Assembly: GCA_017450125.1 (NCBI GenBank)
Contig: JAFSWZ010000016.1
Location: 1-46,688, forward strand
Direction of reading: 5' to 3'
Length of the DNA: 46,688 nt
From: Synergistaceae bacterium
GTDB lineage: Bacteria > Synergistota > Synergistia > Synergistales > Aminobacteriaceae
Position numbers and translations under genes: made by a program
The notes under the pieces: generated by a model
The model's input: only the letters and a program-made list of their open reading frames with translations
The model's database searches: none
What the model was told of the DNA's origin: nothing
Shown here: piece after piece, positions 3,758 through 13,935 of the stretch
Layout of the letters: the number at the start of each line of letters is the position of its first letter
Numbering within the stretch: the stretch's first letter is position 1

Positions 3758-4489
3758 TTAAGGGTGAGCGATGATGAACGGCTGTTCGCGCTGATCCGGC
3801 GGAAGTATCGAGTGGTCAAACCACATCGAGTAGAACCGCTCGGCGTTGTTCACGGTGTAGCCGTCCTGCAGGTGGTCTGAGGTGTCGTAGGGGTCAACCA
3901 TAACCAGAACGTCATCAAGTGTGTTGTCCGTGCCCATAGTGTCATAGCCGATGATAACTCTCCAGTGTCCGCCCCACTCGACATTCTCTACAATGATGGG
4001 GATTCCGGCAGAGAGATTCTCACGGACGAACGACATGAACTCGTCGTACTCCTCGAACCTTGCGTGAGTTAGGCTGCTTTCCGTCTTCCAGCCCAGCCTA
4101 TCAAAGAACGCCAGCATGTCCTTCGGTGTTGTGCCTATGGGGTAGGCTCGAGTCTTCATGTCGTGCGAGAGCATCTCTTCAGTAAAATCCTTAACGCCGT
4201 AATACCAGAGCACCGTCAAGGCACTTGCAGGGCCGCAGGTGTATTCCGTTGTCTGCTGGTAGGTGGGGTAGTTCGTGAGAATTATGCGGCTGTCGGTTGA
4301 AGCTGCCTCGTAGAAGTCCGTAACCGTGTCGAAATACACAGAGCCTTTGTGATTTATCTCTGCGGGGGCTGAGGAAGCACCTTCACTCGTTGTGTCGAGG
4401 CCTTCAGGGAACGGAATCACTCTGACTCCCGCACTGCTCACACCGCAAAGAACCAGCAAACACATTAACGCTGAAAGTATCTTCTTCAT
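3758..4489 (-). CDS. Exported C39-like cysteine peptidase (Peptidase_C39_2 type)
   Basis: A 243-residue protein with a Sec signal peptide (about residues 1-20, ending VSSA). A papain-like C39-type peptidase domain follows: nucleophile Cys85 in YTCGPAS, His175 in GGHWRVIIGYD, and Asp199 in MVDPYD. It is the last gene of the RiPP operon, overlapping the preceding gene by 4 nt, and a strong terminator follows. Because the exporter already has its own C39 domain for leader removal, this second enzyme probably acts outside the cytoplasm, perhaps on the exported peptide, on a sensor or in self-protection. That role is inference. Members of this family are often annotated only as C39-family or papain-like peptidases. 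The fold and triad are well supported by sequence. Confidence 0.75.
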   Translation of the reverse strand: MKKILSALMCLLVLCGVSSAGVRVIPFPEGLDTTSEGASSAPAEINHKGSVYFDTVTDFYEAASTDSRIILTNYPTYQQTTEYTCGPASALTVLWYYGVKDFTEEMLSHDMKTRAYPIGTTPKDMLAFFDRLGWKTESSLTHARFEEYDEFMSFVRENLSAGIPIIVENVEWGGHWRVIIGYDTMGTDNTLDDVLVMVDPYDTSDHLQDGYTVNNAERFYSMWFDHSILPPDQREQPFIIAHP

Positions 4490-5385
4490 TTCACAACTCC
4501 TATCACTAAATCAACGTCCCATTCATAATAGGGGTTGGAGAGTATTACGCCGTCTGCTGTATCCTTCATCTTGCTTCTGACGTTGACTTTGCGCGGAACT
4601 TTCAGGCCTTCGGTGTTCCTGTACCAGAAGACAACATCTGCTCTCTCCGACGCGAGTGCCGCAGAACGCCCGCCCGCATCCACGCTGATTAAGCGTACAT
4701 TCTTCTTGAGACGGCGGCCGATTTCAGCGAGAATTGCTGTGTTGTAGCCCGCAGGACGGCCGTCAGCCGCGATAAAGTCTATCGGCGGGAGGTCTCCTGT
4801 TACGGCGGCACGTATTGTCTTTGCTCCCTTGAACTCCGAGAACTTCACCTGTTCCGGCTCACCTGCAAGCTCCGTGATGTACTTCTTCTCGAGGCGGGCA
4901 AGAGTACCGTCCTTCTTCATGGCGGCTATTGCGCCGTTGAACTCCTGCTGAAGTTCCGTGTTGCCCCTCTTGAAGCCGAATGATATTGTCGAGGGCATCA
5001 TGTTCAGCGAGAACTGTATATCGTACTGGGGATTGTTTTTGACGAGGTACATTCCGACTGCTTCAGGAAGAATTATCTCGTCAATCCGTGTTGAACGCAA
5101 CGCCATCTGCATCGACAGCAGGGAGTCGAAGAAGCGTATCACCCTTCTTGTCTTTATGATTTCGGTAAGGAAACCGTCAAGCCCGTCTTCCTGCATCCAG
5201 TCATTAGCTCCGCTCTCACTGATGAGGGGTGCTAATGCCTTCCTCAAATCGTCAAGCCCCTCCTGAAACTCCGCCTCAGTCGTCCCGAGCCACGTGAGGA
5301 CTCCGCTCTCCACAACATTTTCTGCCCCGAAGCACGAGGCCGCCGACAGCACCACAAGCATAACTGCACACAATAACTTCTTCAT
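4486..5385 (-). CDS. Circularly permuted type-3 solute-binding protein (copy 1 of the RiPP operon)
   Basis: 299 residues with a signal peptide (1-20). The order of the solute-binding lobes is reversed. Residues about 101-172 look like the end of a GlnH/HisJ-type protein: ISFGFKRGNTELQQEFN, then MKKDGTLARLEKKYI. Residues about 190-297 look like the beginning of one: a TGDLPPIDFIAADGRPAGYN segment, then ALASERADVVFW and ILSNPYYEWD. The usual Thr-Asp/Pro-Glu-Arg ligand loop after the first lobe is replaced by YRNTEG, so a classic amino-acid ligand is doubtful. It overlaps both neighbours by 4 nt, so it is translationally coupled to the STAS and C39-peptidase genes. No permease is adjacent, which suggests a sensor or peptide-binding role rather than uptake. 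That last point is inference. Confidence 0.7.
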   Translation of the reverse strand: MKKLLCAVMLVVLSAASCFGAENVVESGVLTWLGTTEAEFQEGLDDLRKALAPLISESGANDWMQEDGLDGFLTEIIKTRRVIRFFDSLLSMQMALRSTRIDEIILPEAVGMYLVKNNPQYDIQFSLNMMPSTISFGFKRGNTELQQEFNGAIAAMKKDGTLARLEKKYITELAGEPEQVKFSEFKGAKTIRAAVTGDLPPIDFIAADGRPAGYNTAILAEIGRRLKKNVRLISVDAGGRSAALASERADVVFWYRNTEGLKVPRKVNVRSKMKDTADGVILSNPYYEWDVDLVIGVVK

Positions 5386-5699
5386 TCTTCTCCTCCTGCA
5401 ACATCAAATATCTGCGAAAATCCCGTGATGTTCAGTATGCTCATCACTTCATGAGAGACATTCACGAGCTTTATGGGACTGCTTCTCCTCTTGGCCAGAG
5501 AAAGAAGAACCCTCAGCCCCATGCTCGAAATGTACTCGAGGCTTCCGCAGTCGAACACAACAACTTCGTCCTTGCCTTCACCCAGCACTGACGCAACGGC
5601 ATCGCTGAAGCTGTACGCGTTTGTCGCGTCGATGCGTCCCGAAAGCGTGAAGGTCAGAGCTTCAGAATCGCGCGAAAAATCAACCGTGAGCTTTCCCAT
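5382..5699 (-). CDS. STAS-domain anti-sigma-factor antagonist (SpoIIAA/RsbV-like)
   Basis: A 105-residue single STAS domain. The fold is recognisable from the strand LTFTLSGRIDATNAYSF, then VVVFDCGSLEYISSMGLRVLL. The Ser-Ser-Met-Gly segment (around residues 58-61) is where SpoIIAA/RsbV-type proteins are phosphorylated by their partner kinase. Such proteins release a sigma factor, or another target, by binding an anti-sigma kinase in the cytoplasm. The gene overlaps the upstream RsbW-like gene by 20 nt and the downstream binding-protein gene by 4 nt, so the pair is clearly co-expressed. No PP2C-type phosphatase and no sigma factor are present in the operon, so the switch is either completed elsewhere or has been repurposed. 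Confidence 0.78.
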   Translation of the reverse strand: MGKLTVDFSRDSEALTFTLSGRIDATNAYSFSDAVASVLGEGKDEVVVFDCGSLEYISSMGLRVLLSLAKRRSSPIKLVNVSHEVMSILNITGFSQIFDVAGGEE

Positions 5700-6300
5700 A
5701 GTTCTTGCGCACCGTTAGTTCCACGCCGTCCCGACGAACGCCGACAGATACCTCATCGGCAATGTTAGCGATGATCGATTTCTCGAGTTCATCCCAAGCG
5801 TCGGAGTCTTCCTCAGCTTTAACGTCCTCCTTGTACTTCTGCATTGACCAGGCGTACATTGCTCTGGACATTCCTGCATCGAGGGATAACATACCGTACT
5901 CCGCAATTCCTGGCCCGTACTCTGACTGAAGCGCGAAACCCTCCTCCATTCCATACAGGCCGGCCTCAAAGATACAGCGGATCTTTTCCATGATGCCCAG
6001 CCGTGCTGTGTTCCGGCCGCTGGTCGATACTGAGAGGAGCTCCCTGCGCTTCGCGTAATCCAGCTCAGATTTTGCCGACAGGTGAAGCGTGCAGTCCTTG
6101 CCCTCGTGCTCAATCCAGAACTCCGCGCTGAATGAGCCCGCTATTGACTGAACCATATTCAGCATTTCCTCAGCAAGAAGCCTGAGCCTCAGTGCCTCTT
6201 TGCCTGTGAGGCCTATGGACCCCGCGATTCTCTCCGTAAGCTCGAGAGCCTCATTGGCTGATGCTGTGCTGCCTGCGATTGCGATTCTGTATTCTGCCAT
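5680..6300 (-). CDS. Degenerate RsbW/SpoIIAB-like (GHKL) protein, partner of the STAS protein
   Basis: 206 residues, starting at the ATG at 6300. GGAGG sits 8 nt upstream, inside the end of the preceding gene, which rules out the longer in-frame extension. Residues about 35-50 (LRLRLLAEEMLNMVQSI) match the N-box helix of GHKL anti-sigma kinases, with the conserved Glu and Asn. The next expected element, a D-x-G-x-G ATP-lid motif, is missing: the corresponding stretch is KSELDYAKRRELL. A later GIMEKIR segment resembles the helix after the lid. The protein may therefore bind its STAS partner without phosphorylating it. The last about 60 residues are of unrecognised type. Its position directly upstream of a STAS gene, with a 20-nt overlap, supports the pairing. 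Family assignment is moderately secure. Confidence 0.55.
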   Translation of the reverse strand: MAEYRIAIAGSTASANEALELTERIAGSIGLTGKEALRLRLLAEEMLNMVQSIAGSFSAEFWIEHEGKDCTLHLSAKSELDYAKRRELLSVSTSGRNTARLGIMEKIRCIFEAGLYGMEEGFALQSEYGPGIAEYGMLSLDAGMSRAMYAWSMQKYKEDVKAEEDSDAWDELEKSIIANIADEVSVGVRRDGVELTVRKNYGKAHG

Positions 6301-6301
6301 T

Positions 6302-7162
6302 CTACATACCTCCGTAAAGATTAAGTATTGCACTCTTGAAGTCCCACCAGCTTGATGCTTTCGGCGGAGCTTTCCGCAGGTGTATGAACTTTTCCCACTC
6401 GTAATAAGGCTGTGAGAGTATAACACCTTCGGGAACATCCGGCTGAGTTTCTGCGTCAGAGTTGACCTCGTACCAGAAGACTACGTCGGCTCTTCCCGAT
6501 GTCAGCGCGGCAGTCCTTGCTCCTGCGTCGGTCTCTGTGAGCTCGATGTTCACGCGGAGGATGCTGCCGATTTCCGCGAGTATCGCCGTGTTGAAGCCTG
6601 CGGGTGTGCCGTCGGGAGCTATGTAGTCCAGAGGCGGAAGGTCGCCCGTAACCGCAACCTTGACCGTCGGTGCTCCGTCGAACCTCTGGAACTTCACGGG
6701 GTCAGGGTCTTTTCGCGAGGCCAAGTAACTGCCCTCAAGGACTGACAGCGTCCAGTTGTCCCGCAAGAGCTTCAATGCTTCGTTGAACCTGTCGCGGAGC
6801 TCCTCGTCCTCAGCACGGAAACCGAACGACAGACCCATTCCCTTAGAGCGCAGGACTAACGTAGCTTCGAGCCCGTCATTCATCCTCAGGACGTATTCTG
6901 CCGCCGCCTCAGGAAGAACCATCTCGTGAATCTCCTTCCTGTTCACCGCCATCAACATGCCCGTGATGTTGTCGTAGAACTTCACGATGACTTCAAGATT
7001 TCCGTTTGCTGGGGCAAAAGTCTTCTGCCACTGTTCTGAAAACTCTTCCTCCGTAGTGTTGAGCTTCGCGAGCAGGCCGAGACGTATGAGGCTCTTCTCT
7101 GCCGGACTGACCAGTGCCGCCATAACCAGCACAACCGCAACTGCGCATAATACCTTCTTCAT
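6302..7162 (-). CDS. Circularly permuted type-3 solute-binding protein (copy 2 of the RiPP operon)
   Basis: 286 residues with a signal peptide (about 1-20). It is a paralogue of the protein encoded at 4486-5385. The reversed lobe order is the same: LSFGFRAEDEELRDRFNEAL around 111-130 (a C-terminal-lobe end), then TGDLPPLDYIAPDGTPAGFN and LTSGRADVVFW (an N-terminal-lobe beginning), then ILSQPYYEWE. Both copies share a KLNTTEEEF or WLGTTEAEF segment soon after the signal peptide. A C-terminal tail of about 25 residues is extra and Trp-rich. The gene overlaps the second ABC exporter gene by 4 nt and ends 1 nt before the RsbW-like gene. I infer an extracytoplasmic sensor or accessory of the exporter. 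The ligand cannot be predicted. Confidence 0.7.
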   Translation of the reverse strand: MKKVLCAVAVVLVMAALVSPAEKSLIRLGLLAKLNTTEEEFSEQWQKTFAPANGNLEVIVKFYDNITGMLMAVNRKEIHEMVLPEAAAEYVLRMNDGLEATLVLRSKGMGLSFGFRAEDEELRDRFNEALKLLRDNWTLSVLEGSYLASRKDPDPVKFQRFDGAPTVKVAVTGDLPPLDYIAPDGTPAGFNTAILAEIGSILRVNIELTETDAGARTAALTSGRADVVFWYEVNSDAETQPDVPEGVILSQPYYEWEKFIHLRKAPPKASSWWDFKSAILNLYGGM

Positions 7163-9303
7163 TTGGTGCCTCCTGTTCTTTGTCGTTCGACGAGGGACGC
7201 GAAAAGCCCTTTTCTGCTCATGAGGTCGTCATAGCTGCCTTCTTCCGCGATTCTTCCGCCGTCAATCACCAGAATACGCCCGCAATGCCTGACTGTCGAG
7301 AGGCGGTGCGCAATAACTATACGTGTGCACTTCAGGCCGTCAAGCGACTCGGAGACTATCCGCTGTGTGATGTTGTCGAGCGCGCTTGTTGCTTCGTCGA
7401 AGAGGAGAATCTTCGGCTTAGGGGCAATTGCGCGGGCAATGATTATTCTCTGACGCTGGCCTCCTGAGATCGTGCCTGCTCCCTCGCTTATGAGAGTGTG
7501 CATCTTCATGGGCATTCGGCGGATGTCGTCGGCAATACCGGCCATTTCGGCGGCTTGCCACGCGTCGGCTTCGGTGAGGTGCGGAGCAGAGATGACTATG
7601 TTGCTGTAGATGCTGCCGGGAAAAAGCCTGCTGTTCTGCATTACGCACCCGATGCTTCGCCTAAGCGCGCGGAGGTTGAGGGTCTTAATGTCGCTGCTGT
7701 CGTAGTAGATGACTCCGCTGTCCGGCGTGTCGAACCCAAGCAGAAGCCTCATCAAGGTACTTTTTCCGCACCCGGACTTCCCGACAATCGCGACGTATTC
7801 GCCTAGCTTTACGCGGAACGAAATCTTGTCGAGGACGAGCGGCGACTTCGCGGAGTACCTGAAGGTTACGCTGTTGACCTCAATTCCTCCCCTGACGCGC
7901 GCGGGTGTCCTGCCCTGCGAGATTTCAGGTACTTCTTCAAGCACTGGACGAATCATGTCGGCCATCGGCCCGATCATCGCCATCGAGAGAGTTACCCCGC
8001 ACAGCGCAGTGAACGCACCTGACAGCATGCCGTACGACACCGTGAACGCCATGTACTCGGCTGGCTGAACCTTCGCGCCCCACGCGGCACGGTAGAGCAG
8101 GAACGTTCCGGCGAGCATCACGACGGGCTGAATTACGTTCGTGAGCTTCAGGAACAGCGGAGGGTTGTACTCGAGCTTTGCGTCCTTGCTGTAATGACCT
8201 GCCCACTTCGAGAACGCACGTTTCTCCGAGCCCGTGAGACGTATCTTCTGTATGCCGGTTATCAGCGCGTAAAGCAGTCCGTATTCCTCAGCACGGAGCT
8301 TGGTTCTGCGTTTCAGCAGCTTCGTGTGCCACCACGCCGACAGGACAGCGAGTGCCGCCATCACCGACACGATACACAGCGCGGGGAAGACCAGCGACGG
8401 CGCGAAGGCAAATATCTGCTGGAGGTAGACGAGGCTCATCAACGCAGTTAGTGCCGCAGAGAAAATCACTTCCGCCCCCATCGAACAGAGCATCTCTGTG
8501 CCCGAAACCCTCTGCGCAAGTTCCCCTGCTGAATACTTCCTGAAGAACTCAGCAGGAAGATTTATAACACGCATCATCACCGCCGCGTTCAGTGAAGTGT
8601 TGGTCTTGAGCTGTATCCGCGCGAGCAGCAGCATCTTCGAGACCGTCAGCAGTGCCGCAGAGATTCCGGCGCACGACATGAACACTATCAGTGAGGCCAG
8701 AGCTCCGATGTTCTGCGTGTGAATCGCGTGGGTGTAGATTATTCGGGTCAAGTAGGGCGGAATCATCGACACAAGAACGGCGGCGAGAGTTACCAGCGCG
8801 ATATAGACGATGTCGTAAAGGGAGATGCATTTTGCCGCGAAACTCAGCAAGTCCTTAACGCCCAGCTTTTCCGCCGGAAGAGGACGGTAGAAGCACACCG
8901 CCTCAGCCTTCAGCTCCTTCTGCGTTGAAGCGTTCACGCGAACGGTCTTTCCCGTATCGTAATCCCTGTACGTGTAGCCCCGCCAGTCAGGGATCAGTGC
9001 GGCGTAGTCTCCAGCCTTCGTCGTTGCAAGGTACACGCCTGCCGCGTCCTTGTACCAGCCGTCAGTGAGCTCGACTGTCCTGCGCATCACACCGCACGGC
9101 CCGAAAATGTCTTCAAGCGTATCGTGTTCAAGAAGTGCCTCAGGTACTCCGAACACTCCGGCAATCTCAGCAACAGCACCCTTAGCTGACTGAACGGAAA
9201 CTTTTTCGCCGTCTACGGCCTCCGCAATCTTCCCGAAAGCATCGGCAAACGCTTCGTTGTCCGAGTTGACCCGTATTCTTATCTGTTCATCAAACCATCC
9301 CAT
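7159..9303 (-). CDS. NHLP-type peptide-export ABC transporter, permease/ATPase subunit without peptidase
   Basis: 714 residues: a soluble N-terminal region of about 150 residues, a six-helix exporter membrane domain (about 165-440) and a C-terminal ATPase. ATPase motifs are Walker A GKSGCGKST, signature ISGGQRQR, Walker B ILLFDEATSALD and the H-loop IVIAHRLST. There is no C39 domain. The arrangement matches the second ABC subunit of NHLP/NHLM bacteriocin systems, which normally works with a peptidase-bearing partner. That partner is encoded 9 nt upstream (9313-11466). The pair probably forms a heterodimer that exports the peptide across the inner membrane. GAGGTG precedes the ATG at good spacing. 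Family and role are well supported by motif content and neighbourhood. Confidence 0.85.
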   Translation of the reverse strand: MGWFDEQIRIRVNSDNEAFADAFGKIAEAVDGEKVSVQSAKGAVAEIAGVFGVPEALLEHDTLEDIFGPCGVMRRTVELTDGWYKDAAGVYLATTKAGDYAALIPDWRGYTYRDYDTGKTVRVNASTQKELKAEAVCFYRPLPAEKLGVKDLLSFAAKCISLYDIVYIALVTLAAVLVSMIPPYLTRIIYTHAIHTQNIGALASLIVFMSCAGISAALLTVSKMLLLARIQLKTNTSLNAAVMMRVINLPAEFFRKYSAGELAQRVSGTEMLCSMGAEVIFSAALTALMSLVYLQQIFAFAPSLVFPALCIVSVMAALAVLSAWWHTKLLKRRTKLRAEEYGLLYALITGIQKIRLTGSEKRAFSKWAGHYSKDAKLEYNPPLFLKLTNVIQPVVMLAGTFLLYRAAWGAKVQPAEYMAFTVSYGMLSGAFTALCGVTLSMAMIGPMADMIRPVLEEVPEISQGRTPARVRGGIEVNSVTFRYSAKSPLVLDKISFRVKLGEYVAIVGKSGCGKSTLMRLLLGFDTPDSGVIYYDSSDIKTLNLRALRRSIGCVMQNSRLFPGSIYSNIVISAPHLTEADAWQAAEMAGIADDIRRMPMKMHTLISEGAGTISGGQRQRIIIARAIAPKPKILLFDEATSALDNITQRIVSESLDGLKCTRIVIAHRLSTVRHCGRILVIDGGRIAEEGSYDDLMSRKGLFASLVERQRTGGTK

Positions 9304-9312
9304 GAGTGCACC

Positions 9313-11466
9313 TCATTCGTTCGTGATAAGTTCAGCGTAATACTCACAGCGTCCCATCAGCTCAGCGTGAGTGCCCCTGTCGAGGATTTCTCCCTGCTTC
9401 ATCACGATGATTTCGTCGCAGTCCCGAATTATCGAGAGGCGGTGAGAGATGATGATTCGGGTTATTCCGCGTGCGGCTATGGCCGTCATGATCTTGTACT
9501 CGGTCTGGCTGTCCAGCGCGCTTGTAGCTTCGTCCATGATGATTACCGTCGGGTCTTGGGCGAGCACTCCCGCGATCTCTATCCTCTGACGCTGTCCGCC
9601 GGAAAGGTTGCGTCCTCCTTCGCTCACAGGGGCGGAGTAATCACCTTCACGCTGGACTATCTCGTCGTGAATCGCGGCATCACGTGCGGCAAGGACAACC
9701 TCGAAGTTCTCGATGGACTTGTCCCACATCCTGATGTTGTCGGCTATCGTGTCCTCAAACAGCGTTACGTCCTGAGTTACGCACGCGACACTGCCCGTAA
9801 AGACACTGCGGTTGACTGCGCTGATGGGTCTGCCGTCAAAGAGTATCTCGCCCTCCCACGCAGGATAAAGGCCGGTGAGCAGCTTTGCCGTCGTAGATTT
9901 CCCGCAGCCCGAAGGCCCGACGATCGCGACGCTGCTGCCCGGTTCAACCGTCAGCGAAAAATTCCGCAGTATCGGGGGCTCAAGCCTGTTGTACCCGAAC
10001 GAAACATTACGCATCTCGACAAGCCCCGAGAGCTTGGCCAAGTCCTCGTCAGGCAGTTCACCCGACAATCCTTCGGCGAGCGGGTACTTGAAGACATCCT
10101 GCACGCGCTCCATCTGTGTGCGCATCTCCTGAAGCTGAGTACCTGCATTAATCAGCTGTGCCGCAGGGTTCGAGAACGCAGTCAGGTAGCCGTTGAACGC
10201 AGAGACGAGGCCTATCGTCCATTCGCCCTGAATGATGAGCCTCACTCCCAAGAACAGAATCAGGTTCGACATCAGCAGCGAGACGAGGGGCGGAATCTGG
10301 CCAAGCGTGGTGTTGAGGCGCGCGAACTTCACAGCCTGAGCGTTTGCGTTTGCCTGAAAGCCTGACCACCGCGTGAAGAACCCGTTTTCCGCACCGGCTG
10401 ACTTTATCGTCTCGATCATGTCTATTCCCGACACAGTTGCCCCCTGAAGGTTAGCGTTGTCCCTCATCTGCACGCGAGTGATGTTGATGCGCTGCTTGGA
10501 GATTAACCGCGCAAGAAGCAGGTTGATGCACACCGACGCAACTCCCGCGAGGGCAAGAACAGGGCTGTAGTCGATCATGATGAGGAGGTTGAAGATCATC
10601 GCGGCGGAGTTCAGAAGAAGAGGCGTGAAGGTGTTGATGAGCGTGCTTGTGATGTTCTGGTTGGACTGCTGGCGCGAGGCAATATCTCCGGCCATTCTCT
10701 GCTCGAAGAACTCGACCGGCAACCTCAGTATGTGCCACAAGAACGACGCGTTAGCGACACCCGCCGTCCTGCCCTGAATCCTCAGCATACAGACAGCGTT
10801 GATGACGAGAGAAGCACATTGCGCGAGGATAACCAGCCCCAGCAGCACGAAGAAGCCTCCGGCGAGCTGTGGTGTCTTTGCGGTGAGTATGTTGTCCACG
10901 AAGAACCGCCCGAACGCCGGAAGCAGAAGCCCCGTCAATGCGGCAATCAGCGTGGTTATCGCAACCATCACGAAGGCAGGGAGAGTACCCGTCAGCCTCT
11001 GCAGCGCGAATTTCAGGATCGAGGCGGGCTTCCCTCCTTTCTCGAAGTCCTCTGACGGCGCGAACATCATGCATATCCCAGAGTACGACTTCTTGAACTC
11101 CTCGAAGGTTATGCTGACTTTTCCGCGCGCAGGGTCATTGAGGTATACCTTGTCGCCCTTGAAGCCGTCGAGCACGACGAAGTGATTGAACTCCCAGAAG
11201 ATGATACACGGGAAACTGTCATGCTTCCTCAAAACTTCTGCTGTTGCCTTGAAGGCTTTGGGGTTGAGCTTGTATTTCTTTGCGACCGCGTGAATGCTCT
11301 TGAGGTTGGAGCCGTCCCGCGAGACCCCGCACTCCTGCCGCAGCTGCTCGAGAGGAATCCACAGGCCGTGATACGCCATGACCATAGCCAGCGAAGCCGC
11401 CCCGCACTCGAGAGCCTCCAGCTGCATTACGACGGGAACGTCCGCGATAGATTTTCGTGTGAACAT
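9313..11466 (-). CDS. NHLP-type peptide-export ABC transporter with N-terminal C39 leader peptidase
   Basis: 717 residues in the order C39 peptidase, membrane domain, ATPase. The peptidase (1-135) shows Cys21 in ECGAAS, His95 in NHFVVLDG and Asp111 in NDPARG, a complete triad. Six membrane helices follow (about 155-430). The ATPase has GPSGCGKST, LSGGQRQR, IIMDEATSALD and IISHRLS. C39 exporters cut leader peptides after a Gly-Gly pair and transport the core. Both precursors here end their leaders in Gly-Gly, so they are the natural substrates. The start is 1 nt after the stop of the small HlyD-like gene, so the two are tightly coupled. Confidence in function is high; stoichiometry with the second subunit is inferred. 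Confidence 0.88.
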   Translation of the reverse strand: MFTRKSIADVPVVMQLEALECGAASLAMVMAYHGLWIPLEQLRQECGVSRDGSNLKSIHAVAKKYKLNPKAFKATAEVLRKHDSFPCIIFWEFNHFVVLDGFKGDKVYLNDPARGKVSITFEEFKKSYSGICMMFAPSEDFEKGGKPASILKFALQRLTGTLPAFVMVAITTLIAALTGLLLPAFGRFFVDNILTAKTPQLAGGFFVLLGLVILAQCASLVINAVCMLRIQGRTAGVANASFLWHILRLPVEFFEQRMAGDIASRQQSNQNITSTLINTFTPLLLNSAAMIFNLLIMIDYSPVLALAGVASVCINLLLARLISKQRINITRVQMRDNANLQGATVSGIDMIETIKSAGAENGFFTRWSGFQANANAQAVKFARLNTTLGQIPPLVSLLMSNLILFLGVRLIIQGEWTIGLVSAFNGYLTAFSNPAAQLINAGTQLQEMRTQMERVQDVFKYPLAEGLSGELPDEDLAKLSGLVEMRNVSFGYNRLEPPILRNFSLTVEPGSSVAIVGPSGCGKSTTAKLLTGLYPAWEGEILFDGRPISAVNRSVFTGSVACVTQDVTLFEDTIADNIRMWDKSIENFEVVLAARDAAIHDEIVQREGDYSAPVSEGGRNLSGGQRQRIEIAGVLAQDPTVIIMDEATSALDSQTEYKIMTAIAARGITRIIISHRLSIIRDCDEIIVMKQGEILDRGTHAELMGRCEYYAELITNE

Positions 11467-11467
11467 G

Positions 11468-11659
11468 TTACTTCAGGAGGAAGGTCAGGGGCTTGATGGT
11501 TTGTCCGTTGACTGAAAGTTCGCCGAAGAACAGCCAGGTGAACAGTCCGAGCAGGAAGATTGCTGCCGAAGTAAGGATTATCCAAGCTCCGGGACTTGCT
11601 GCGCGTATGTAGCTGTTTAGCTGTTCGGGGGAAGAGATTTTGTTAGGATTGTCTGGCAT
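11468..11659 (-). CDS. 63-residue membrane-anchor remnant of an NHLP-type HlyD secretion protein
   Basis: 63 residues. The segment KISSPEQLNSYIRAASPGAW is followed by one transmembrane helix (about 27-46) and the short tail FFGELSVNGQTIKPLTFLLK. The SPEQL-to-FFG stretch closely resembles the N-terminus of NHLP-system HlyD/membrane-fusion proteins as I know them. Those normally continue for several hundred residues of periplasmic coiled coil and barrel. Here an ordinary stop codon ends the frame and the exporter ATG comes 1 nt later, so nothing of the body remains. GAGGTG precedes the ATG, so it is probably translated. It may be a true minimal anchor that docks the exporter, or a deletion product. 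The truncation is seen; the function is inference. Confidence 0.6.
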   Translation of the reverse strand: MPDNPNKISSPEQLNSYIRAASPGAWIILTSAAIFLLGLFTWLFFGELSVNGQTIKPLTFLLK

Positions 11660-11697
11660 GTCTGCACCTCACTGATATAGTTTTGCATACACAACGA

Positions 11698-11721
11698 CCG
11701 CCGTGATTCTGCTCACAGCGG
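11698..11721 (-). terminator. Hairpin between precursor gene and exporter genes (possible attenuator)
   Basis: A 9-bp stem with one G-T wobble (arms 11698-11706 and 11713-11721, 6-nt loop) lies 18 nt after the second precursor stop in the 80-nt gap before the HlyD-like gene. On the minus strand it is followed by TCGTTGTGT rather than a clean T-run. A partial terminator here would make precursor mRNA more abundant than exporter mRNA, a common layout in peptide operons. It may also stabilise the upstream RNA. Confidence 0.4.
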
Positions 11722-11739
11722 CCGGAATCGTCCTTAATT

Positions 11740-12105
11740 CTACGCTAGTCCGAGCCCTTCAGAAGAACACCAGCATCTTTCGTGCCCGTTGTTGGTGTTG
11801 ATACCTGTTCCGCTGCCTGAGCAGTCGCAGGAGAGCTCCCACGTCAGGCCTGAGCCGTAGTTCTGGCATCTGCAGGAGCTGGTTACTTTCGCAGCGAAAA
11901 ACCCTGTTCCGCCCGACACTGCCGCCATCTCGTCCTCCGAGAGCTCGGATGTCTCTGAGGGAGCTAAGTCCTCCGCCGTAATCGCGAACCCTCGAGAAGC
12001 CGCCAGCTTCACGATCGCATCAAAGCCCTTCGCACTCTTCATCGCATCCTTGAGTGCCTCATCCTGCGACACTGCTTCAAGAAACTTCTTTACGTTATCT
12101 GTCAT
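11740..12105 (-). CDS. Nif11-type RiPP precursor 2 with three CxC pairs in the core
   Basis: 121 residues. The leader (1-66) is typical of the Nif11-like group: MTDNVKKFLEAVSQDEAL at the start, FAITAEDL in the middle, and ELSEDEMAAVSGG before the cleavage point. The predicted core is 67-121 and rich in Gly, Ser and Asn. It contains exactly six cysteines as three Cys-x-Cys pairs at 78/80, 93/95 and 111/113, with x being Arg, Asp and Trp. A Tyr-Gly pair follows the first CxC pair. GGAGG sits 8 nt before the ATG. The gene lies 12 nt downstream of the radical SAM maturase. The leader closely resembles that of precursor 1, while the cores share little apart from the cysteine pattern. It probably becomes a secreted, crosslinked peptide; the chemistry is unknown. 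Confidence 0.85.
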   Translation of the reverse strand: MTDNVKKFLEAVSQDEALKDAMKSAKGFDAIVKLAASRGFAITAEDLAPSETSELSEDEMAAVSGGTGFFAAKVTSSCRCQNYGSGLTWELSCDCSGSGTGINTNNGHERCWCSSEGLGLA

Positions 12106-12117
12106 TATCTTTGCCTC

Positions 12118-13542
12118 CTAATTCTGCCACAATGGATTGTCCATGACGGGAGATGTTGCGCCCGGCCGACACTTCCTTACGGCATCAATGATTCTATCAA
12201 CCCATCCGCCCTTGAACAACTCGCAAGAAGAGCGTGATTTCCCCATCAGGCCATTGCCGTCGCCGAAAGCATCAGCCCGACATCCGCCGTAACAGCACCG
12301 AGAGTACCGGCACTCCCTGCAGTCGTCGTGAAGCGCGAAGTACTCGCTTGCCCGCGTGTTGATGATGCTCATGTAGTATGAGTCAGTGATGCACTGCGCG
12401 AGTCCCTGTTCGGTGATGAGGGGGAACTTCTCCTGAATCTCGAAGCCGGAGAGCGACGTACACGGCAGGGTTCTTCCGTCGGGAGCGATGTACATGACCA
12501 GCCTTGCATGCCCGCACATGCAGAAGGTTTCGGGGTCGCAGTCCGGCTTGTACGAGGGAATGTGAAACATATCCGGCTCTCTTTGGTCAGCCATGAAGAA
12601 GCCGCCGAGCATTATTCCCATCGGCATACCGTCTTCATAGTAGTGCGGGATATAGTCAAGGTACAGCTGATAAAGCTCACGGTTCGTGAATGACTCTCCG
12701 TAACCGTTTTTGAGCCATTCGCCGGAGTTGGAGACGGGGTTAGTCTTGACGCTCCTAACACCCAGCTTCCCCATGTGCCGGATACTTTCTCTGAGGGTGT
12801 GCTTGTTGCGGGTATGAAGGCACATCTCCGCCCCCGTCGGGAAGCCGTTGTCCCTGCAGAGAGCAAACGCTCTGTCCACTGCTTCTTCTGCTCCGCTGAC
12901 TCCTCTCAGCCAATCGTGCCAGCCTACGCCGTCATAGCTCATATTGAACTCCGGGTGAATGTTCCTTCTGTCGAGCTCACGCAACAGGGTTTCATTGACT
13001 AATGCTCCATTGCTGTAGATTGTCCTGATGTGTATTCCGCGCTCAAGGAGTGCGTCAACGATCTCGAGGAAGTCCGGCCTCACGAGGGGTTCTCCGCCAG
13101 TCAGCGATACGTTCATCACGCCGCAGTCCCCGAGCTGGTTCACGATGTCCATGATTGTACTGTGCGGAAGCTCGCTGAACTTCGCGCTCGGTGCGGACAT
13201 GAAGCAGTGCTTGCACCTGTAGTTGCACCGGCCAGTGATTGACCAGTGGGCTTGCTTGATGTATCGGGCGGGATATTTGCGGTACTTCTGGATGTCGGTG
13301 AGGGCTTGGCCGGGAGCGCAGGGTTCTACGATGCCGTTTGCCTGTGCGTCGGCGATGATTGAGCGTGTCTTGTCGGAGATGAGAGGGAGAGAGACATCAA
13401 CAGTACTGTCGCAGAGATTTATTGCGTCCCACTGAGCGGGCGTGAGGAACATTGCCCCGCCGGTGTTTGCGTCAACAAGAGCATAAGGCAGACGTTCCCA
13501 GCCCCTGAGCAGAAAATTATCTTTCAGCCTGTAACTAGGCAC
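12118..13542 (-). CDS. Radical SAM/SPASM peptide maturase
   Basis: 474 residues from the GTG at 13542. A longer ATG start at 13605 would overlap precursor 1 by 71 nt and has no ribosome-binding site. The GTG overlaps the precursor stop by 8 nt, suggesting translational coupling, and gives an N-terminus (PSYRLKDNFLLRGW) that suits this family. An N-terminal PqqD/RRE-like region of about 75 residues precedes the radical SAM core with CNYRCKHC (Cys-x3-Cys-x2-Cys), then SLTGGEPLVRPDF. The C-terminal SPASM region carries CMCGHARLVMYIAPDG, LPC, then CRECRYSRCCYGGC and a final SSC, enough ligands for auxiliary [4Fe-4S] clusters. Such enzymes make thioether or carbon-carbon crosslinks in peptides. 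Flanked by two precursor genes, it very probably modifies both. Confidence 0.87.
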   Translation of the reverse strand: MPSYRLKDNFLLRGWERLPYALVDANTGGAMFLTPAQWDAINLCDSTVDVSLPLISDKTRSIIADAQANGIVEPCAPGQALTDIQKYRKYPARYIKQAHWSITGRCNYRCKHCFMSAPSAKFSELPHSTIMDIVNQLGDCGVMNVSLTGGEPLVRPDFLEIVDALLERGIHIRTIYSNGALVNETLLRELDRRNIHPEFNMSYDGVGWHDWLRGVSGAEEAVDRAFALCRDNGFPTGAEMCLHTRNKHTLRESIRHMGKLGVRSVKTNPVSNSGEWLKNGYGESFTNRELYQLYLDYIPHYYEDGMPMGIMLGGFFMADQREPDMFHIPSYKPDCDPETFCMCGHARLVMYIAPDGRTLPCTSLSGFEIQEKFPLITEQGLAQCITDSYYMSIINTRASEYFALHDDCRECRYSRCCYGGCRADAFGDGNGLMGKSRSSCELFKGGWVDRIIDAVRKCRPGATSPVMDNPLWQN

Positions 13543-13906
13543 CTTCGCCGTAATTAGAGCATCCGCAGACTCCTCCAGCCCCGAATCCTCCTTCACCCCT
13601 GCCATCGCAGTAGCACGTGCTGAACGGAACAGAGAAAATCAAAAAAGTTCCAGTTCCCTGAGGATTACACGTGCACGTTGCACCGCCAGCAACAGCCTTC
13701 ATCTCGTCCTCGCTGAGTTCCTCCATCTCTGAGGGCTTGAAGTCGTCCGCAGTGAGCGTGAGCCCGTGCTTGCCCGCGAACTCGACTGCCGCTGCCGCCA
13801 TAGCGTCGGTGTCCTTCGGCGTGCCGTCCGCGAGAGCCTTGAACTCTTCTAGCAGTGCCTCGTCCTTCGAGACAGCCTCAAGAAACTTCTTCATGTTGTC
13901 CGTCAT
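13535..13906 (-). CDS. Nif11-type RiPP precursor 1 with three CxC pairs in the core
   Basis: 123 residues from the second of two adjacent ATGs. That start gives the same MTDN beginning as precursor 2 and an 8-nt spacing to GGAGG. The leader runs to Gly74-Gly75: MTDNMKKFLEAVSKDEAL, then LTLTADDF, then ELSEDEMKAVAGG. The predicted core (76-123) has six cysteines as three Cys-x-Cys pairs at 78/80, 98/100 and 114/116, with x being Thr, Tyr and Gly. Between the first two pairs is a hydrophobic FLIFSVPF stretch; between the last two is a Gly-rich DGRGEGGFGAGG. It ends SNYGEGA. It is the first gene of the operon, so it is likely the most abundant product. The precursor role rests on leader, Gly-Gly, exporter and maturase together. 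Confidence 0.87.
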   Translation of the reverse strand: MTDNMKKFLEAVSKDEALLEEFKALADGTPKDTDAMAAAAVEFAGKHGLTLTADDFKPSEMEELSEDEMKAVAGGATCTCNPQGTGTFLIFSVPFSTCYCDGRGEGGFGAGGVCGCSNYGEGA

Positions 13907-13935
13907 CATTAATGCCTCCTCTGGGATTCAGGCAC

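Follow-up and report, generated by a model that had tools for sequence, protein, structure and literature searches.

The locus raises the question of what a single radical SAM/SPASM enzyme makes of two neighbouring precursor peptides whose cores look strongly unlike, but which carry the same arrangement of cysteines. The window analyzed here is the whole stretch of 46,688 nucleotides of contig JAFSWZ010000016.1 from a Synergistaceae bacterium (assembly GCA_017450125.1), and a sequence-only reading of it had described two Nif11-type precursors and suggested that they belong to no class that could be named. Translation confirmed that each core holds exactly six cysteines in three CxC pairs, with the first pair at residues 78/80 in both (in the numbering of that reading) and with spacings between pairs of 17/13 and 12/15 residues. 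The shared unit is not CxC alone but a nine-residue CxCxxxGxG motif, present three times in both peptides, which makes the cores more alike than they appear. Our preferred reading, which we consider fairly probable, is that each motif receives two nested thioethers from its cysteines to the alpha carbons of its glycines.

On the minus strand, positions 13909 to 7159 read as one operon, in the order precursor 1, SPASM maturase, precursor 2, HlyD-like protein, C39 ABC transporter and second ABC transporter, and all coordinates given for it below refer to this strand. Precursor 1 (13535..13909; 124 aa, or 123 aa from the second Met (13906), the start used in the sequence-only reading) consists of a Nif11 leader (residues 1–76, with GG at 75–76) and a 48-aa core with the motifs CTCNPQGTG (13649..13675), CYCDGRGEG (13589..13615) and CGCSNYGEG (13541..13567). 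Precursor 2 (11740..12105; 121 aa) has a leader of residues 1–66 followed by a 55-aa core with CRCQNYGSG (11848..11874), CDCSGSGTG (11803..11829) and CWCSSEGLG (11749..11775). The Nif11 assignment held for both, as they exceed the cut-off of 32.3 bits of the RiPP leader model TIGR03798 (54.7 bits for precursor 1 and 33.5 bits for precursor 2), are also matched by Pfam Nif11, and carry the GG sites AVSGG and AVAGG, respectively; no other Nif11 matches were found in the genome (2.16 Mb). The neighbouring radical SAM ORF (12118–13605) does sit between the two precursor ORFs. Its likely start is the GTG at 13542, because relatives align from about residue 21–25 of the longer ORF onward, and this start gives a maturase of 474 aa (12118..13542) with an 8-nt overlap with the stop of precursor 1.

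In the gap that separates precursor 2 from the transporter genes lies a 12-bp GC-rich stem-loop (11695..11724), for which a role as attenuator is a faint possibility (1 found vs. 2.2 expected by chance). Scanning the region for promoters yielded no result exceeding chance. The HlyD-like anchor protein (11468..11659) has only 63 aa, matches just the first 49 of the 421 positions of the NHLM HlyD model TIGR03794 and is not a full HlyD. A frameshift artefact was rejected as the cause, since an equally short form occurs at 65–68% identity in two related genomes (G065 and G055, loci L033 and L053), and export may thus use a minimal adaptor. The C39-peptidase ABC transporter (9313..11466, NHLM_micro_ABC1-like), expected to perform GG cleavage and export, and the second export ABC transporter (7159..9303, NHLM_micro_ABC2-like) score just below the cut-offs of the NHLM subunit models TIGR03796 (833.2 vs. 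853.3) and TIGR03797 (690.6 vs. 709.4), which are by far their best matches.

Further along, two proteins encoded at 4486–5385 and 6302–7162 have partial matches to SBP_bac_3 (solute-binding), and one of the two reading frames overlaps the second ABC gene at its end; similar copies are found beside the related loci L033, L040, L041, L045, and L053, and possibly serve immunity or sensing. A 252-aa ORF (5680–6438) that overlaps its neighbour had no Pfam or NCBIfam match and is 68% identical to a counterpart in G065, and a C39-like papain-fold peptidase (Peptidase_C39_2; 3758–4489) is encoded downstream of the export genes.

All CxC pairs in the window open a CxCxxxGxG (6/6, with 0.3 expected), a count reached in 0 of 20,000 trials when the cysteines were held fixed and the remaining core residues permuted. 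In order to see how widely the motif is kept, relatives of the maturase were gathered from the phylum (19/188 genomes), from named genomes and from three other orders, and the adjacent small ORFs were read. The search that the earlier reading had suggested, for Nif11 peptides with three CxC pairs next to enzymes of this family, was successful in many genomes. The 41 distinct cores obtained came from gut Synergistaceae, Oscillospirales, Lachnospirales, and the order of an Atopobiaceae genome (Coriobacteriia), and 99 of their 109 CxC pairs were exactly CxCx3GxG, vs. a mean of 8.4 (sd 2.6, maximum 19) in 5,000 shuffles, a statistic that is inflated by kinship among paralogues and relatives. For loops of any other length between 0 and 9 the counts were 1–24 only, and the ten deviating pairs had x4 loops or Ala, Val, or Asn at Gly7. 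When 12 cores were aligned, no column was invariant except those of the twelve motif Cys and Gly, the x positions being free. Relatives from no fewer than four orders of gut bacteria keep the motif. The leaders vary more than the cores, and in the Oscillospiraceae and some precursors of the Coriobacteriia order they are short and below the Nif11 cut-off, with the same core. Homology of the Nif11 leader alone was rejected as an explanation of the shared core, since a profile built from the core only recovers the same genomes and the Nif11 precursors of a sister enzyme clade are free of the motif.

As the only residue conserved at a constant spacing from the cysteines is glycine, which has no beta carbon, the simplest reading is an alpha-carbon thioether. 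The same observation speaks against a ranthipeptide, in which the cysteines would be joined to a beta or gamma carbon of residues that lie among or next to the fixed motif positions, where the x residues vary. Six cysteines per short core are reminiscent of SCIFF peptides, and the SCIFF/ranthipeptide enzyme CteB, which has the same architecture, is among both the structure and the sequence matches of the maturase; its sequence match is however weaker than that of SkfB (1.9e−7 vs. 8.3e−15), and the SCIFF precursor model had no match up to E 0.1 in the two window precursors or nine relatives. We thus regard ranthipeptide chemistry as quite improbable.

The way in which the cysteines and glycines pair can be read from motifs that have lost one of their cysteines. 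The second Cys of a pair has Gly at +4 in 100/109 cases and at +6 in 102/109, while a lone Cys (none at −2) has Gly at +4 in 16/21 and at +6 in only 4/21, the background Gly frequency in these counts being 0.18. Given Gly at +4, a second Gly at +6 was present or absent in 99 and 1 of the pairs vs. 4 and 12 of the lone cysteines (Fisher 3e−12, with rows that are not independent). Motifs with a lone Cys thus usually lack Gly9 as well and retain Cys3 and Gly7, a loss that recurs in Synergistaceae (L039, L056), Oscillospirales (L075, L160), Lachnospirales (L165), and the Coriobacteriia order (L079, L170/L194, L172). The joint loss of Cys1 and Gly9 suggests that Cys1 pairs with Gly9 and Cys3 with Gly7, which favours a nested arrangement in the register expected of a hairpin whose turn has three residues. 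In an AlphaFold model of precursor 2 every motif is predicted as a hairpin with CxC and GxG on opposite strands (pLDDT only 67).

A ladder of unnested Cys-to-Gly alpha-carbon thioethers (Cys1–Gly7 and Cys3–Gly9) would fit two donors, two acceptors, and a constant spacing equally well by count, and unnested sactionines are described for streptosactin (PMC8172795). It predicts the opposite of the losses seen, as Gly9 is lost and Gly7 kept when Cys1 is absent (12 vs. 4), and the predicted hairpin register, at low confidence, has Cys3 facing Gly7, so that we consider such a ladder very unlikely. For the nested sactionines themselves, four lone cysteines that still have Gly at +6 and the 10/109 deviating pairs count on the opposite side. 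In addition, Gly rarely acts as sactionine acceptor in characterised peptides, and the conservation of glycine-rich hairpins might reflect folding instead of an acceptor role.

A maturase with a different chemistry (e.g., epimerisation or a C–C linkage) would leave the cysteines to form disulfides or bind metals and give GxG a structural role. CxC pairs are common metal ligands, export leads outward to where disulfides could form, SPASM enzymes are diverse, and SuiB, which makes C–C bonds, was the top Foldseek match of the maturase. No aromatic residue, Lys, or other classic C–C acceptor is conserved, however; an odd number of cysteines in 15/41 cores argues against full disulfide pairing, and the joint loss of Cys1 and Gly9 would be unexpected for disulfides or metal sites. 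We therefore judge this explanation unlikely.

The enzyme carries a CX3CX2C motif and a full SPASM set (CX12GX4C..CX2CX5CX3C..C), invariant in 12 relatives. None of the NCBIfam equivalogs reached its cut-off (best 88 vs. 400 bits); the second-best curated match was the StsB sactipeptide maturase NF045574 (84.7 bits, cut-off 625), and the nif11-class peptide radical SAM maturase 3 (TIGR04103) gave 69.1 bits (cut-off 725). The enzyme is thus a RiPP maturase of the SPASM type that falls in none of the curated families. Its structure model (pLDDT 83) matched SuiB first, over model residues 3–443 including the N-terminal part, followed by SkfB, CteB, PqqE, and anSME, and at its N-terminus the model is similar to the part of SuiB that binds the leader (RRE). 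In sequence comparison, SkfB came out as the closest RiPP maturase of solved structure, PqqE aside, ahead of SuiB and CteB. The features that mark sactipeptide-type maturases, i.e., radical SAM, SPASM/twitch clusters, and a leader-binding domain, were found in sequence and model combined. Against nested sactionines, the enzyme is distant from every characterised sactisynthase, with approximately 15% identity in structural alignment and the low StsB score given above. No relatives of the maturase were found on viral contigs or plasmids, and a defence role was rejected, since the viperin match obtained with PADLOC covers the common radical SAM core only.

The link between enzyme and motif could be followed independently of the leader. 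A profile of the core without the leader matched 9 of the 188 phylum genomes, all of which have the maturase, and 17 of the 22 matches share a contig with the enzyme. The remaining five are found close to the end of a single contig (G047 C41, 52,942 bases); they can be read as the rest of an array that breaks off where contig C7 begins, a join that we infer. Within the genus, the CxC clade counts ten intact maturases, which group together with support 100/98 and are all located beside CxC precursors, and the fifteen of the sister clade stand beside Nif11 precursors with mostly two-Cys, GxG-free cores; the core-type label required 4 changes on the tree vs. 13.4 in shuffles. Core type thus follows enzyme clade. 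One maturase often has several precursors, with four CxC precursors per enzyme at loci L037 and L196.

The cores of the sister clade (L042–L052, L054) are short, with mostly two Cys some 7–10 residues apart and no GxG (e.g., GGYSCTGVIMKWTCDNVTW), and as judged from their sequences constitute a second, undescribed core type. One of these loci (L052, G066:C85) has three tandem maturase genes among several precursors of the two-Cys type on one 13-kb contig. At L053, L059, L063, and L064 the maturase is split into two ORFs by a frameshift or stop, probably through decay or assembly errors, and L053 adjoins an intact CxC precursor. A more distant Bacillota maturase clade (L085, L089, L090, L205) stands beside precursors with repeatedly found motifs, DxCxxTFRDxEDCWxxDGC and ATVEPGSxC among them, which look like another core type.

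Taken together, the locus would make two exported RiPPs. The RRE-like N-terminal region of the maturase would bind the Nif11 leader, and a 5′-deoxyadenosyl radical would abstract an alpha hydrogen from the motif glycines, to whose alpha carbons the motif cysteines would then add to give S-to-alpha-carbon thioethers (sactionines). Each motif would obtain two nested bridges, an inner Cys3–Gly7 (i to i+4) and an outer Cys1–Gly9 (i to i+8), which together would staple it into a beta-hairpin whose turn has three residues. A core with its three motifs would thereby become a string of three such mini-hairpins carrying six thioethers, with a predicted mass change of −12.09 Da (core 1 from 4717.938 to 4705.844 Da, core 2 from 5721.453 to 5709.360 Da). 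The C39 peptidase/ABC transporter would cut the leader after GG and then export the peptide, whose function is most likely competition between bacteria or signalling in the gut.

The topology was predicted from the joint loss of residue pairs and can be tested directly with point variants. If true, a short, repeatable nine-residue code would put two nested thioethers on glycine, offering a compact means of stapling designed peptides and a new gut peptide family to screen. The sister clade with two-Cys cores provides a natural comparison for substrate switching in these enzymes. We put forward only tentatively, at somewhat less than even chances, a separate RiPP class found across the gut, with CxCxxxGxG as its substrate code and, as its unit, a doubly stapled mini-hairpin of Cys and Gly, nine residues long and repeatable within a chain, which one SPASM family builds on many precursors. 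A literature search, mostly outside subscription papers, found neither the motif nor three-CxC Nif11 peptides, and an earlier description may exist.

Of comparable known systems, the Nif11/NHLM RiPPs (Haft et al. 2010, PMC2887384) share the Nif11 leader with GG, the C39-ABC and second ABC transporters, and Cys/Gly/Ser-rich cores. That work linked them to TOMM and LanM enzymes and does not mention radical SAM, while a SPASM enzyme is the sole maturase seen in the operon described here. Ranthipeptides and SCIFF peptides (maturases CteB, PapB) likewise combine six cysteines in a short core with an RRE-bearing SPASM radical SAM enzyme, but their acceptors are Asp, Glu, Thr, and Asn at the beta or gamma carbon (PMC11002830), whereas here Gly alone is conserved. 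The locus probably works like a sactipeptide system, membership of that class depending on the bond being seen. The earlier statement that no class could be named holds in that the window precursors and nine relatives matched no core-specific family among curated profiles (a Foldseek search with the low-confidence precursor model also returned nothing at E 0.001), and is weakened in that ruminococcin C1 has CxC donors (PMC8172795) and the Gly pair suggests sactipeptide chemistry.

According to the same paper, ruminococcin C1 (RumMC maturases) comes from gut bacteria, has multiple precursor genes per locus, and uses a CxC donor pair (Cys3/Cys5) and a SPASM radical SAM maturase, with nested thioethers in which Cys5–Ala12 lies inside Cys3–Asn16; the inner bond of ruminococcin C is reported to form first (PMC8326336). 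Unlike here, the acceptors described there are Ala, Asn, Arg, and Lys, with larger loops and no repeated CxCx3GxG, and the leaders given for known sactipeptides have 8–29 aa (PMC8326336) vs. about 66–76 aa in this locus. Streptosactin (GggA/GggB, StsB family) has a Gly acceptor (Cys31–Gly34, PMC8172795), with bridges that are unnested and span i to i+3, and no Nif11 leader or NHLM export in the description given there. Both halves of the proposed chemistry have precedents, the nesting of CxC donors in ruminococcin C1 and the use of Gly as acceptor in streptosactin.
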